Positions 49,909-54,271 of a stretch of DNA of 64,000 nt are shown piece by piece. Both the position numbers and the translations under genes were made by a program. The notes below the pieces were generated by a model. It was not told the DNA's origin. It saw only the letters and a list, made by a program, of their open reading frames with translations, and searched no databases. Origin of the DNA: Terriglobales bacterium (GTDB lineage Bacteria; Acidobacteriota; Terriglobia; Bryobacterales; Bryobacteraceae); NCBI GenBank assembly GCA_027485675.1, contig JAIXQP010000041.1, forward strand, positions 1 to 64,000. The letters run 5' to 3'. The number at the start of each line of letters is the position of its first letter. Position 1 is the stretch's first letter.

Positions 49909-51181
49909 GCGGCACCTCCAATGTAATCGTAGTGCCCCCGCTTGTTTCGATGCGCAGCGTCCCGCCGAGAATCTCGGCCCGTTCGCGCATCCCCGCCAGG
50001 CCCACGCCCGGCGCCGCGCCCGCCGCGATGCCTGGCCCTTGGTCCGCGACTCGCAGCCGCAGGGGTTCACTGCCCAACTCCACCGCCACCTCCTTCACGC
50101 CCGCGTGCCGGGCCACGTTGTTCAGCGCCTCCTGCAAAATCCGAAAGACGTGGATCGCCCGCCCGGCCTCCATCGCCGGCGCCTTCGCCGGCCTGCTATA
50201 GAGCACTCGAATGCCTGTCTGCCGTTCGAACACCGGCAGATACCATTCGACGGCCGGCCCCAAACCCTGCTCTTCGAGGATCACCGGCTGCAGCGCCTGC
50301 GAAAGCGCCCGCACTTTTTCGAGCGTCTCCTGCACCACCACTTTCGTCTCCTGCAATTCCTCTGTGAACGCCTCCGGCGCCGACCTTCCCGCGCGCGAGA
50401 GCATCGCCCCCACCGCCGTCAGAATCTGCCCGAACTCGTCATGCAGATCCCTCGACACCGTCCGCAGCGTACTCTCCTGCGTCGCAATCAACTGCTGCGC
50501 CAGTTCGCGCCGCTGATTCGACAAGCTCGCCAACCGTTCAAAGAGCATCCGATTGGAGCGGATCAACGCCAGGCTCACGATCAACACGAGCGCCAGCGAA
50601 ATCCCCAGGAAAACATAGGCATTCCGTTCAATTTCGCCGTAGATCACCGCAATCTGCTCCGCCGCCCGCTGCTCCTCCGCGTTGTTCTGCACGAGCAGCC
50701 GCGCCGTCAGCGCCGTCAGCGCCTGCTGCTGCGGCTCGACGGTCTCCCGGATGAACGCCGTCACCGTCCCGGCCGGCCCCGATTCGGCCAGCGCCTTCAT
50801 CTTGTCGACCGTCGCCCAGAGCTGCGCGAACGCCGCCGCGAGGTAGGCCGTCTGTTGCGGATCCCGCCGTCCGCGCGCCAACTCCGCCTCCACGCGAATC
50901 GCATCGTCCAGGTTCTCGCGGATCCGGTCCAACTGCGGAGCCCAGGCCGTCAACGGGTATCCGTCCCTCTGGTCGATCATGTCCCGCAGCGCCAGCGCGA
51001 GCGAGTTCAGGTCGCTCTGGATGCGAATCAACTGCAGCGCCGCCTTCCGGTTCTGATCGATGATCTCGGTCTGCACCTCGCGCATCCGATTCACCGAGTT
51101 CAGCGTATAGCCCGCATAGGCCAGAATGATCGCGAGCGTCACGGCCACCCCGGCCGCCAGGCGGGCGCTGGGCGACGTCAT
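49901..51181 (-). CDS. NarL-family sensor histidine kinase
   Basis: A 426-residue membrane kinase. TM helices at about 11-29 and 189-207 flank a helical periplasmic region of about 155 residues (chemoreceptor-like four-helix type, no Cys). A HisKA_3 domain follows with phospho-acceptor His247 (RDLHDEFGQ), then HATPase with NNVARHA, DQGPGI and GVGLAGMRER. The ATG at 51181 overlaps the MFS stop as ATGA. The signal is unknown. Confidence 0.94.
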   Translation of the reverse strand: MTSPSARLAAGVAVTLAIILAYAGYTLNSVNRMREVQTEIIDQNRKAALQLIRIQSDLNSLALALRDMIDQRDGYPLTAWAPQLDRIRENLDDAIRVEAELARGRRDPQQTAYLAAAFAQLWATVDKMKALAESGPAGTVTAFIRETVEPQQQALTALTARLLVQNNAEEQRAAEQIAVIYGEIERNAYVFLGISLALVLIVSLALIRSNRMLFERLASLSNQRRELAQQLIATQESTLRTVSRDLHDEFGQILTAVGAMLSRAGRSAPEAFTEELQETKVVVQETLEKVRALSQALQPVILEEQGLGPAVEWYLPVFERQTGIRVLYSRPAKAPAMEAGRAIHVFRILQEALNNVARHAGVKEVAVELGSEPLRLRVADQGPGIAAGAAPGVGLAGMRERAEILGGTLRIETSGGTTITLEVPHG

Positions 51182-52383
51182 GATTCGTACGGGGGCATCC
51201 ACAACATCAGGATGGCGGAAAGAGCGGTCGGAATGGCAAGCAGGCTCAGGACCAAAGTGTACGACGCGGTCGAATCAAACACGCGCCCCAGCAGCACCGG
51301 GCCCAATCCCCCCGCGATGGCATAGAACGTCCACGTCAACCCGTACAAGGTCGAGAACGAACCCAGCCCGAAATAGCGCGACAGCAGATACGGCGTCACA
51401 TCGGCCTCGCCGCCGAGCCCCAGGCCGATCAACAGCGCGGCCGCCAATCCGGCCGCGAACGTATGGGCGTAGGCCAGCAGCAGAATCCCCGCCGCCATTG
51501 CCGCCAGCAGCAGGCAGGAGATCAGCGGTCCCCGGAACCGGTCCAGCAGATAGCCGGTCAAGAGGCGTCCGCCCAGGCTCGCGCCCCCGAGCGCGGCTGC
51601 GATCCAAGCCGCCGTTCCCGCCTCGAGCCCGCGGTCCGTCAGCAACGCGGCCAGATGCGCAATCGCCCCGTTCGCCGCAATCGAGCTCAAAAACAACGTC
51701 GCCACCAGAATCCAAAACGCGCGCGTCCGCAGCGCCGCGCCCGCGCCGCCCGGCCCGCCGGATTGCCGCGCCGCCGCCGCAGGATTCGTCCGCAAAAACT
51801 TGGCCGCCAGCGGCAGGCTCACCGCCAGCGCCAGGCCTCCCAACGTGAAGTACGCGGCCCGCCACCCGTAGCTGCCGATCAATCCCTGCGCCAGCGGCGG
51901 CAGCACAATCGAGCCCAGCCCCGTCCCGGCCATCACCACCGCCAAGGCCAACCCCCGGCGCTCCGAGAACCACGACGAGACCGCCCCCGAAAAGCCCATC
52001 TGTGTCGTCCCGTTTCCCACCACGCCAATCACAAAGAACACGAGATACAAATGCGCCAGGTGCGGCGTCAGCAAACCCAACGAGGCGAACGCCAGGCCGA
52101 ACACCGCGAGACACGGCAGCACCACGCGGCGCGGTTCTCCGCGGTCGAGCAGCCGTCCAAGAAAGGGAGAACTCACGGCCACCGTCATCGCGGCGATGGC
52201 GAACGCGCGGGAAACCTCTTCCCGGCCCCATCCGAACTCCGCCGTGAGCGGCTTCAGGAACACGCTGAACGTGAAGACGAGCAGCGACCCGAAGCTCATC
52301 ATCACGCCGTAGTGCGCGGCCAGCACGACGCGCCAGCCCGCGTACCCGAGCGACGATTCCGGACTACTTGCGGACGTAGCCAT
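51178..52383 (-). CDS. MFS transporter (monocarboxylate/OFA-like)
   Basis: A 401-residue 12-TM permease with a central hydrophilic loop and the repeat motif near LGRLLDRGEPRRVV. The topology and the WGREEVSRAF/SSWFSERRGLALAVVMAGTGLG segments resemble the monocarboxylate/oxalate-formate antiporter branch. The ATG at 52383 is 20 nt inside the selenoprotein frame, which would couple it to read-through of the TGA upstream. Confidence 0.9.
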   Translation of the reverse strand: MATSASSPESSLGYAGWRVVLAAHYGVMMSFGSLLVFTFSVFLKPLTAEFGWGREEVSRAFAIAAMTVAVSSPFLGRLLDRGEPRRVVLPCLAVFGLAFASLGLLTPHLAHLYLVFFVIGVVGNGTTQMGFSGAVSSWFSERRGLALAVVMAGTGLGSIVLPPLAQGLIGSYGWRAAYFTLGGLALAVSLPLAAKFLRTNPAAAARQSGGPGGAGAALRTRAFWILVATLFLSSIAANGAIAHLAALLTDRGLEAGTAAWIAAALGGASLGGRLLTGYLLDRFRGPLISCLLLAAMAAGILLLAYAHTFAAGLAAALLIGLGLGGEADVTPYLLSRYFGLGSFSTLYGLTWTFYAIAGGLGPVLLGRVFDSTASYTLVLSLLAIPTALSAILMLWMPPYES

Positions 52384-52960
52384 TTAGCGCCGTCCGCTTC
52401 CCGCCCGCGCGATGCGCTTCGTCGGAAAGTGCATGGACGCCGGAGGCATCAATCCAGCGGTTGTAGAAGTTAAAGAGGGAGCAGACGGTGATTGCATAGT
52501 AGATCTGTTCATCGGTCCATCCCGCGGCGTGCAGCGGGTCCATATCGGCCGCGGTGATCTCCGGCGACCGGCTATTCACTTTGTCGACGAAGCGGAACAG
52601 CGCCTTTTCGGCATCGGTGAGGGCGGAGGTTTCAAAGTTGTCGAGGACGGCCTGCACCGCCTCTTCGCTACCCAACAGAACTGCCGCGACCGCGGCATGG
52701 GACTTCAGTCAAAACGGGCAGTGGTTGCGTGCCGAGGTGAAGGCGGCGATCAACTCCCGCAGCCCCGCCGACAGCGGCGCTTCGCCATGGAGCATCTCGT
52801 GAGTGAACTTCGCCAGATGCTCGGTGGCCTGCGGCTTGTAGGCGAACAGGTGCCAGATCTGCGGATACTCGCCGCCGCCCTTCGCCATCGCGGAGATCGC
52901 CTGGGCATAGGGGCCGGGCGCGGGATTGGCCTCGACATCAGGAAGAAACATCGGTTCCAT
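52364..52960 (-). CDS. AhpD/CMD-family protein, probable selenoprotein (Sec at residue 84)
   Basis: Read as one frame with TGA (52711-52709) as selenocysteine, this is a 198-residue carboxymuconolactone-decarboxylase-fold protein of the peroxidase-related group. The redox motif is S-A-R-N-H-Cys81-P-F-Sec84-L-K-S-His88: the TGA is exactly where the second Cys of the usual NxCxxCxxxH stands, and the following frame continues with family sequence (SHAAVAAVLLGSEEAV, FNFYNRWID). Taken as separate genes, each half would lack part of the fold. GGAAGG precedes ATG 52960; the Met at residue 4 is an alternative start. The expected activity is a thiol/selenol peroxidase or disulfide reductase role. A nonsense mutation is the alternative. 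Confidence 0.85.
52671..52711 (-). promoter_or_regulatory. Candidate bacterial SECIS element
   Basis: After TGA (52711-52709), 17 nt precede a four-base apical loop GGTC (52691-52688) closed by a perfect six-pair stem TGCCGC (52697-52692) / GCGGCA (52687-52682). Below it CCCA (52701-52698) can pair with TGGG (52674-52671) across a 7-nt 3' bulge. The loop sequence and position closely follow the fdhF element of E. coli (18 nt from UGA, GGUC loop), which SelB binds. Confidence 0.78.
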
Positions 52961-53059: not shown

Positions 53060-54271
53060 ATGCCGACGAAACACTCCTGGGAATTCAAACCCTATTTCCG
53101 TTCGAAAGCCTACGGCTGGAGCGGGTCGAGCCTGGCCATCAAACGGCTCAAAGCGGCCGTCGCGGAGATCAAGAAACTGGCTCGCACGGACGCCGTGACC
53201 GCCGCTGACGGCGCTGTGTGGCTCTTTGAACGATTCTGGCCCGCGTTTGAACGGATTGATACGTCGTCGGGAGCCTTGGGCAACGCAGTCAACTGCACCC
53301 AGGAGCAACTCCTGCCCGCGGTCATCACCGCTCCAGCGGATCGCAGGACGCGCGACCAGTGGCTCGGCCGGCTTTGGCAGGCCGTCCAGGATGACGGCGT
53401 CGATTACTTGTGGGTCGTGCAAAACCATTGGGGTGAACTATCCGCCTCGCCTGCCGTGGCCTCCGCGTGGGCCGATAGCTTCACGGGGCTCATTCGCATG
53501 GCGTGGAGCGACCCTCGGCCGGGCGGCACGGTGCAAGGGACGAGTCTTGGTTTATCGAGTCTGCTGGCGGCCGGCCGGCACCAGGAGATTTGGGATCTGC
53601 TGGCCATCGCCAGTTTCCCGTTCTGGCACTACCGCAAGTTCGGTGTCCATGCGTTTGTCAAAGACGGAAGGATCGAGGAAGCTCTGGCCTATGCCGAGGC
53701 CACCCGCGGACTCAATCAACCGGACCGGTCGATCGACTTGGCGTGTGAACGCATCTTGCTCGCCGCCGGCCGCGCCGCCGAAGCGTACGAACGCTATGCC
53801 CTTACCGCCAATGAAAGCGCTATGGGCTTGGCTACCTTTCGCGCGGTTGCCAGAAAGTACCCGGAGATGGATCCTTCCAGCATTTTGACGGACCTTGCCC
53901 GTTCGTCCGGCGACTCCGGCCGGTACTTCGCCGCCGCGAAGGATTTCGGCTACTTTGATTTGGCCCTGCGATTCGCCGAGAACGGCCGGACCGATCCGGG
54001 CACGCTCAGCCGGGCCGCCCGAGACTTTGCAGAGAAGCAGCCGGCCTTCGCGATGAAGGCGGGAAGGCTGGCGCTGCAGCGATTGCTCGAAGGCCACGGA
54101 TTCGATGTGACGGCTCTGGATCTCCAAGAAGCCTACCAACGCTATCTGGCCGCCGCCACGCAATTGGGCTTGGCGGATTCCGCCGCGCGAGAAGCTGCCG
54201 CCCTCGCCGCCCCGTATCAGGGTTTCCGTGCCGCGGAACTCTTGCGGCTCTCCGCCCGCTGGACGCAGTAG
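53060..54271 (+). CDS. Hypothetical helical-repeat protein (DUF6880-like)
   Basis: A 403-residue soluble protein, nearly all helical, starting MPTKHSWEFKPYFRSKAYGW. The N-terminal portion (AIKRLKAAVAEIKKL, GAVWLFERFWPAFERIDTSSGALG, WLGRLWQAVQDDG) resembles DUF6880 proteins; the C-terminal half carries TPR-like pairs. No catalytic motif is seen. ATG at 53060 follows CAGGGC. It diverges from the selenoprotein across 99 nt in which I see no convincing promoter. Confidence 0.78.
   Translation: MPTKHSWEFKPYFRSKAYGWSGSSLAIKRLKAAVAEIKKLARTDAVTAADGAVWLFERFWPAFERIDTSSGALGNAVNCTQEQLLPAVITAPADRRTRDQWLGRLWQAVQDDGVDYLWVVQNHWGELSASPAVASAWADSFTGLIRMAWSDPRPGGTVQGTSLGLSSLLAAGRHQEIWDLLAIASFPFWHYRKFGVHAFVKDGRIEEALAYAEATRGLNQPDRSIDLACERILLAAGRAAEAYERYALTANESAMGLATFRAVARKYPEMDPSSILTDLARSSGDSGRYFAAAKDFGYFDLALRFAENGRTDPGTLSRAARDFAEKQPAFAMKAGRLALQRLLEGHGFDVTALDLQEAYQRYLAAATQLGLADSAAREAAALAAPYQGFRAAELLRLSARWTQ

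Follow-up and report, generated by a model that had tools for sequence, protein, structure and literature searches.

An AhpD-like gene with an in-frame TGA

The window, by which we mean the whole stretch of 64,000 nucleotides analysed here, is part of contig C46 of a draft genome of 6.59 Mb with 97% completeness. On the minus strand at 52364..52960 it holds a gene for an AhpD-like (peroxidase-related, CMD-fold) protein of 198 amino acids, very probably a selenoprotein, which starts with the ATG at 52960 and stops with the TAG ending at 52364. The reverse complement from 52960 to 52364 translates as MEPMFLPDV...RNHCPF-U-LKSHAAVAAVLLG...GYVRK followed by the terminal stop. The sole internal stop is a TGA at codon 84 (52709..52711, minus strand), the predicted Sec codon, which stands in place of the second Cys of a CxxC motif (CxxU). 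The segment around this codon reads RELIAAFTSARNHCPF-U-LKSHAAVAAVLLG and holds the motif E69...NHC81PF-U84-LKSH88, in which H88 lies four residues past the TGA. The initial annotation had described a frame at 52364-52960 with a TGA at a redox CxxC, replacing the second cysteine of the motif and leaving the histidine at +4. Frame, codon and motif were all recovered in the minus-strand translation; the coordinates had been given on the plus sequence with the strand unstated, and frame 1 of the plus strand over this interval yielded no comparable protein.

Directly downstream on the same strand lies a gene for an MFS transporter of 401 amino acids (51178..52383, minus strand; Pfam MFS_1, 142.2 bits), a probable operon partner. 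On the other side a divergent gene of about 403 amino acids is found on the plus strand at 53060-54271, its start being chosen by hand. Neither Pfam nor NCBIfam returned a match for it at E 0.001, and nothing in the available flanks of the 76 relatives described below matched it.

When the TGA was translated as a residue, the protein matched TIGR01926 (NCBIfam, peroxidase-related enzyme, AhpD/CMD) with 104.6 bits at a cut-off of 81.8, and this match spanned residues 7-172 in a single stretch. Moreover, the AhpD core domain TIGR00778 (36.5, cut-off 27.8) and Pfam CMD (40.8, cut-off 23) were recognized. A structure model built from 37 sequences (alignment A2, i.e. the window gene and 36 of 75 related loci), in which residue 84 was set as Cys, gave a mean pLDDT of 96.5 and one confident all-helical domain with residue 84 within the conserved segment. 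Solved relatives found by sequence include 2oyo, 6k40, 3c1l, 2pfx and 2prr, and the 16 best structural matches of the model were chains of these same entries (TM 0.74-0.81, normalised to the query). These Cys-type peroxidase-related proteins share the fold, the length and the CxxC...H motif with our protein but have Cys where it has the predicted Sec, at 22-27% identity.

For AhpD of Mycobacterium tuberculosis the relay residues Glu118, Cys130, His132, Cys133 and His137 are given in passages of PMC3141380. The spacing of Glu118, Cys130, Cys133 and His137 (1gu9) equals that of E69, C81, U84 and H88, so the active-site segment E69...C81, F83, U84, H88 (52697..52756, minus strand) has the spacing of the proton relay. 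E69, C81, F83 and H88 are invariant in 76/76 genes. However, the position of His132 is occupied by Phe83, a Phe in every one of these genes, so that the five-residue relay is incomplete; therefore, we filed the protein as AhpD-like and not as AhpD. The whole-chain match to 1gu9 was weak (TM 0.39, E 0.22).

Conservation of the TGA and the downstream hairpin

A scan of the genome collection returned 76 relatives, and the codon aligned to codon 84 was TGA in 76/76. Among the six peptides used for the search, a single one was fixed to Cys at this position and none to a stop, which makes the scan free of bias towards TGA. The codon count includes one locus with a broken frame (L103) that was left out of the later gene sets; the lone TGC row in the codon table is a second, paralogous match of L082. 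In the 76 full genes, which comprise 75 loci and the window, the only internal stop of each gene was that TGA. The nearest relatives by the selenoprotein gene were Acidobacteriota, and Solibacteraceae, Bryobacteraceae or Acidobacteriaceae where a family was labelled.

We also searched 250 genomes of the order, a sample that overlaps the first set of relatives, and found a match at E <= 0.001 in 176 of them. The 30 best loci had TGA at codon 84 in 30/30 cases. At least 110 of the 250 sampled genomes had a listed match with one in-frame TGA, a list compiled by hand from the matches listed that includes partial entries and others of only about 50% identity; the position of the TGA was checked in the 30 loci and in the TGA rows L153-L155, and elsewhere it was taken from the stop count. 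G055 and G105 entered this list through rows among L153-L155. The best-scoring full-length stop-free homologue among the matches listed was that of G028 with 60% identity. More distant homologues had TGC or TGT at codon 84 in 22 rows and TCC (Ser) in one. The genome of this Ser form (L150, G020:C4) has, judged by E-value, no selA that exceeds the cut-off.

Downstream of the TGA we propose a bacterial SECIS hairpin of six pairs with the loop GGUC (52682..52697, minus strand), identified by covariation. Its central GU lies 19-20 nt past the UGA. The loop is RGUY in most relatives and RGGU in five genes with Gly, and the closing R-Y pair covaries. Since the folding energy alone was not significant (z -0.31), covariation was used as the test for the hairpin. 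In alignment A1, a hand-picked set of the window gene and 62 of the 75 loci (63 sequences, hairpin at columns 24-39), 99.1% of 441 cells were paired, and 32 cells had changed on both sides compared to 10.2 in shuffles, a value that 0/500 shuffles attained. The number of pairs with a double change and the number of further pair types in A1 were not clearly beyond shuffles (41/500 and 233/500 as high, respectively). Sliding the partner along A1 destroyed the hairpin signal.

The two codons that form the loop were GCG-GTC in 49 of the 76 genes, GCA-GTT in 22, GCA-GGT in 4 and GCG-GGT in 1. The mixed pairs GCA-GTC and GCG-GTT occurred at the hairpin in 0/76 genes, whereas elsewhere in the same genes mixed codon pairs exceeded matched ones by 13 to 5. 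On a tree built with the hairpin region masked, the loop-closing pair switched from G-C to A-U about 15 times, with at least 15 changes on the R side and 14 on the Y side. In 6/6 independent pairs whose branches were well supported, R and Y changed together (sign test: median p 0.03, range 0.03-0.06). Besides, stem codons were unusually fixed, as Ala89 was encoded by GCC and Ala92 by GCG in 95% each. All seven hairpin pairs were kept in 71/76 Sec genes and six in the other five, and in the 30 best loci of the order 27 kept 7/7 and three 6/7. Between 1 and 5 of the 7 pairs were left in the 23 rows without Sec (22 with Cys, one with Ser), and the TGA rows L153-L155, which come from other genomes, kept 6, 7 and 5. 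A conserved guanosine in the apical loop of bacterial SECIS elements is described in a figure legend of PMC1088965. Here, the coding-region hairpin directly 3' of the UGA likewise shows a conserved apical-loop G, within GU in most genes and within GG in five. The initial annotation had seen no other Sec codon in the window. A SECIS model derived from the selenoprotein gene gave no further hit there; across the own genome it returned the site of this gene and two marginal ones (E 0.29 and 0.51).

Two of the divergent TGA rows deserve separate mention. L154 (G105:C179) is a distant TGA-form paralogue with 46% identity whose hairpin loop is GGCC instead of GGUC or AGUU, a deviation that counts against our reading, and it may serve as a test of the need for the loop U. 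L155 (G167:C37) is a distant paralogue with 34% identity that groups with the Cys forms and has TGA at the aligned codon together with 5/7 hairpin pairs; possibly it represents a second Sec lineage.

Selenocysteine machinery and the reading of the TGA

The initial annotation had interpreted the gene as a selenoprotein gene and proposed to look for selA, selB, selC and selD in the genome and for unrelated stop codons in close relatives. In the own genome we found all four genes over their cut-offs, namely selA (454 bits, cut-off 268), selB (380, cut-off 242), tRNA-Sec (70, cut-off 47; ARAGORN anticodon TCA) and selD (356, cut-off 125). Neither unrelated stops nor Cys appeared in the close relatives, all 76 of which have the TGA. 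Thus, the machinery and the relatives support the interpretation, as does the covarying hairpin, which the annotation did not contain. Furthermore, selD itself has an in-frame TGA (AAGUASK), which adds another Sec codon to this genome.

In the order as a whole selA was over the cut-off in 201/250 genomes, comprising 100/110 genomes with the listed TGA form and 101/140 others (Fisher p = 0.0002); the genomes without selA were hand-picked from the matches listed, 23 by E-value and G222 because it was absent from them. The ten TGA-form genomes with no selA above its cut-off are draft assemblies that are 72-99% complete. Missing sequence is no easy explanation for G086 (98%) and G249 (99%) among these exceptions. 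Because selA is common in the order and 10/110 TGA-form genomes lack it, we regard the co-occurrence as modest support for the Sec reading.

Frame, family, conserved TGA, covarying hairpin and genomic machinery can all be read directly from the sequence. On this basis we infer, with a probability of roughly 0.96, that the gene is a selenoprotein gene with a bacterial SECIS element that would direct Sec to the UGA. A readthrough of the TGA by suppression, with another amino acid such as Cys or Trp in place of Sec, is very improbable in our view. The computations by themselves would be compatible with a residue other than Sec. However, the genome encodes the Sec machinery, and its selD gene has an in-frame TGA just where Sec is usually found. 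The hairpin lies directly downstream like bacterial SECIS elements, and homologues that lack the TGA carry Cys instead and show no hairpin. In addition, CxxU members of the family have already been reported in the literature, as far as passages of these papers describe them.

We give hardly any credence to the possibility that the TGA is a nonsense mutation or a sequencing error in a former Cys-type gene that is now a pseudogene. Its sole point in favour is that the table-11 reading splits the gene, but the same TGA is found in 76/76 relatives, many of them in separate assemblies, and it is followed by a covarying hairpin. Moreover, when six close relatives were compared with the window gene, most differences before as well as after the TGA fell in third codon positions. 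For L028 the differences at positions 1/2/3 were 2/1/20 upstream and 4/2/30 downstream of the TGA. Two separate short genes, an 83-amino-acid ORF (52709-52960) and a 103-amino-acid ORF with a TTG start (52364-52675) into which the mechanical table-11 ORF list cuts the gene, are extremely unlikely, as the family profile and the single predicted domain run across the TGA and Cys homologues consist of one uninterrupted frame. We therefore rejected the pseudogene, the two-gene and the non-Sec readthrough explanations on TGA conservation, on profile and fold continuity, and on machinery and hairpin.

For a selenoprotein gene, the following is our inferred picture of how Sec is inserted, which way catalysis runs and what the enzyme acts on. 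Ribosomes would arrive at the UGA of codon 84, where the hairpin just downstream would act as a bacterial SECIS element. SelB would deliver Sec-tRNA(Sec), leading to the insertion of Sec. The product would be a 198-amino-acid thiol/selenol oxidoreductase of the AhpD fold with a C81-P-F-U84 active site together with E69 and H88. By analogy with AhpD, a selenol activated by an E69/H88 relay may attack a peroxide or a disulfide, and C81 would resolve the intermediate.

Evolution, transporter linkage and relation to known selenoproteins

On a tree with 102 rows, 7 changes between Sec and Cys are required; its topology has a midpoint root, some long branches and a bootstrap that is not fully settled. 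The Cys row of G028 and a clade of six Cys rows fall inside the Sec clade, their exact nesting being moderately supported, which suggests a replacement of Sec by Cys within the clade. In G028 selA was not found, and genomes of the six-row Cys clade such as G213, G108 and G088 keep selA. Four loci with the Sec form (L078, L077, L049 and L102) are labelled Gemmatimonadota, and the first three of them are placed among Acidobacteriota in the tree. L078 (Roseisolibacter sp. H3M3-2) has no MAG label, so gene transfer is possible. L050 and L052 are labelled Proteobacteria and Chthoniobacterales, yet group with acidobacterial genes, owing to either mislabelled bins or transfer.

The MFS gene has its predicted ATG within the selenoprotein gene, 20 nt upstream of the end of the latter. 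An MFS homologue directly downstream was found in 31 of the 75 relatives and was absent from 39, while 5 had less than 900 nt of downstream sequence (31/70 testable). In L056 the MFS match covers the first 63 residues only. In 28/31 the final 60 nt of the selenoprotein gene contained an ATG in frame with the transporter, at -23 to -4 in 22 of them, and L060, L068 and L082 had no such ATG; these MFS starts are predicted, and in G+C-rich DNA it is common for overlapping frames to stay open. The arrangement suggests an operon of the selenoprotein and MFS genes with translational coupling. Since the likely MFS start is placed within the last part of the selenoprotein gene, synthesis of the transporter might even depend on Sec insertion. 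Ribosomes halted at the UGA for want of Sec-tRNA would then never reach the MFS start, and the selenoprotein gene could act as a translational selenium switch gating the transporter, a role that we consider unlikely. The Cys-form genes of G183, G249 and G088 also adjoin a transporter, which points to a linkage with the enzyme and not with selenium. In NCBIfam the transporter came closest to an L-lactate transporter, with a score far below the cut-off (185 vs 320). A role of the enzyme tied to small-molecule transport would be a guess from the MFS neighbour.

The gene belongs to a selenoprotein family that has been in print since 2005 and is not a new kind. Passages of the respective papers describe 27 AhpD-like CxxU sequences of COG2128 from the Sargasso Sea in 2005 (PMC1088965), two from genomes in 2006 (PMC1794560) and 299 sequences of 'AhpD-like 1' from the Global Ocean Sampling in 2008 (PMC2398784). 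The family is also listed in passages of reviews (PMC9312934; under TIGR01926 in PMC13188914). As described in the passages of PMC1088965 and PMC2398784, these members share with our gene the profile family, Sec in place of the second Cys and a SECIS downstream of the UGA. They are marine whereas ours is acidobacterial and often lies beside an MFS transporter gene. For Acidobacteria, three families with four selenoproteins were reported in 2006, unnamed in the passages of PMC1794560. In the deep-Sep study one acidobacterium had three selenoprotein genes, and AhpD is absent from its main text (PMC12013277). We found no description of the acidobacterial Sec clade in titles and abstract beginnings of the open literature, and no mention of the transporter linkage in passages of the AhpD-like selenoprotein literature cited here. 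As far as these limited searches reach, it is apparently undescribed that an acidobacterial order strongly conserves the Sec form and that the gene is linked to an MFS transporter.

Our analysis supports a selenoprotein gene where the plain bacterial reading frame splits it in two. It further indicates that Sec has been widely retained by an AhpD-like enzyme within a single order of acidobacteria, whose Sec genes and their Cys relatives provide a natural comparison for what Sec gains the enzyme.
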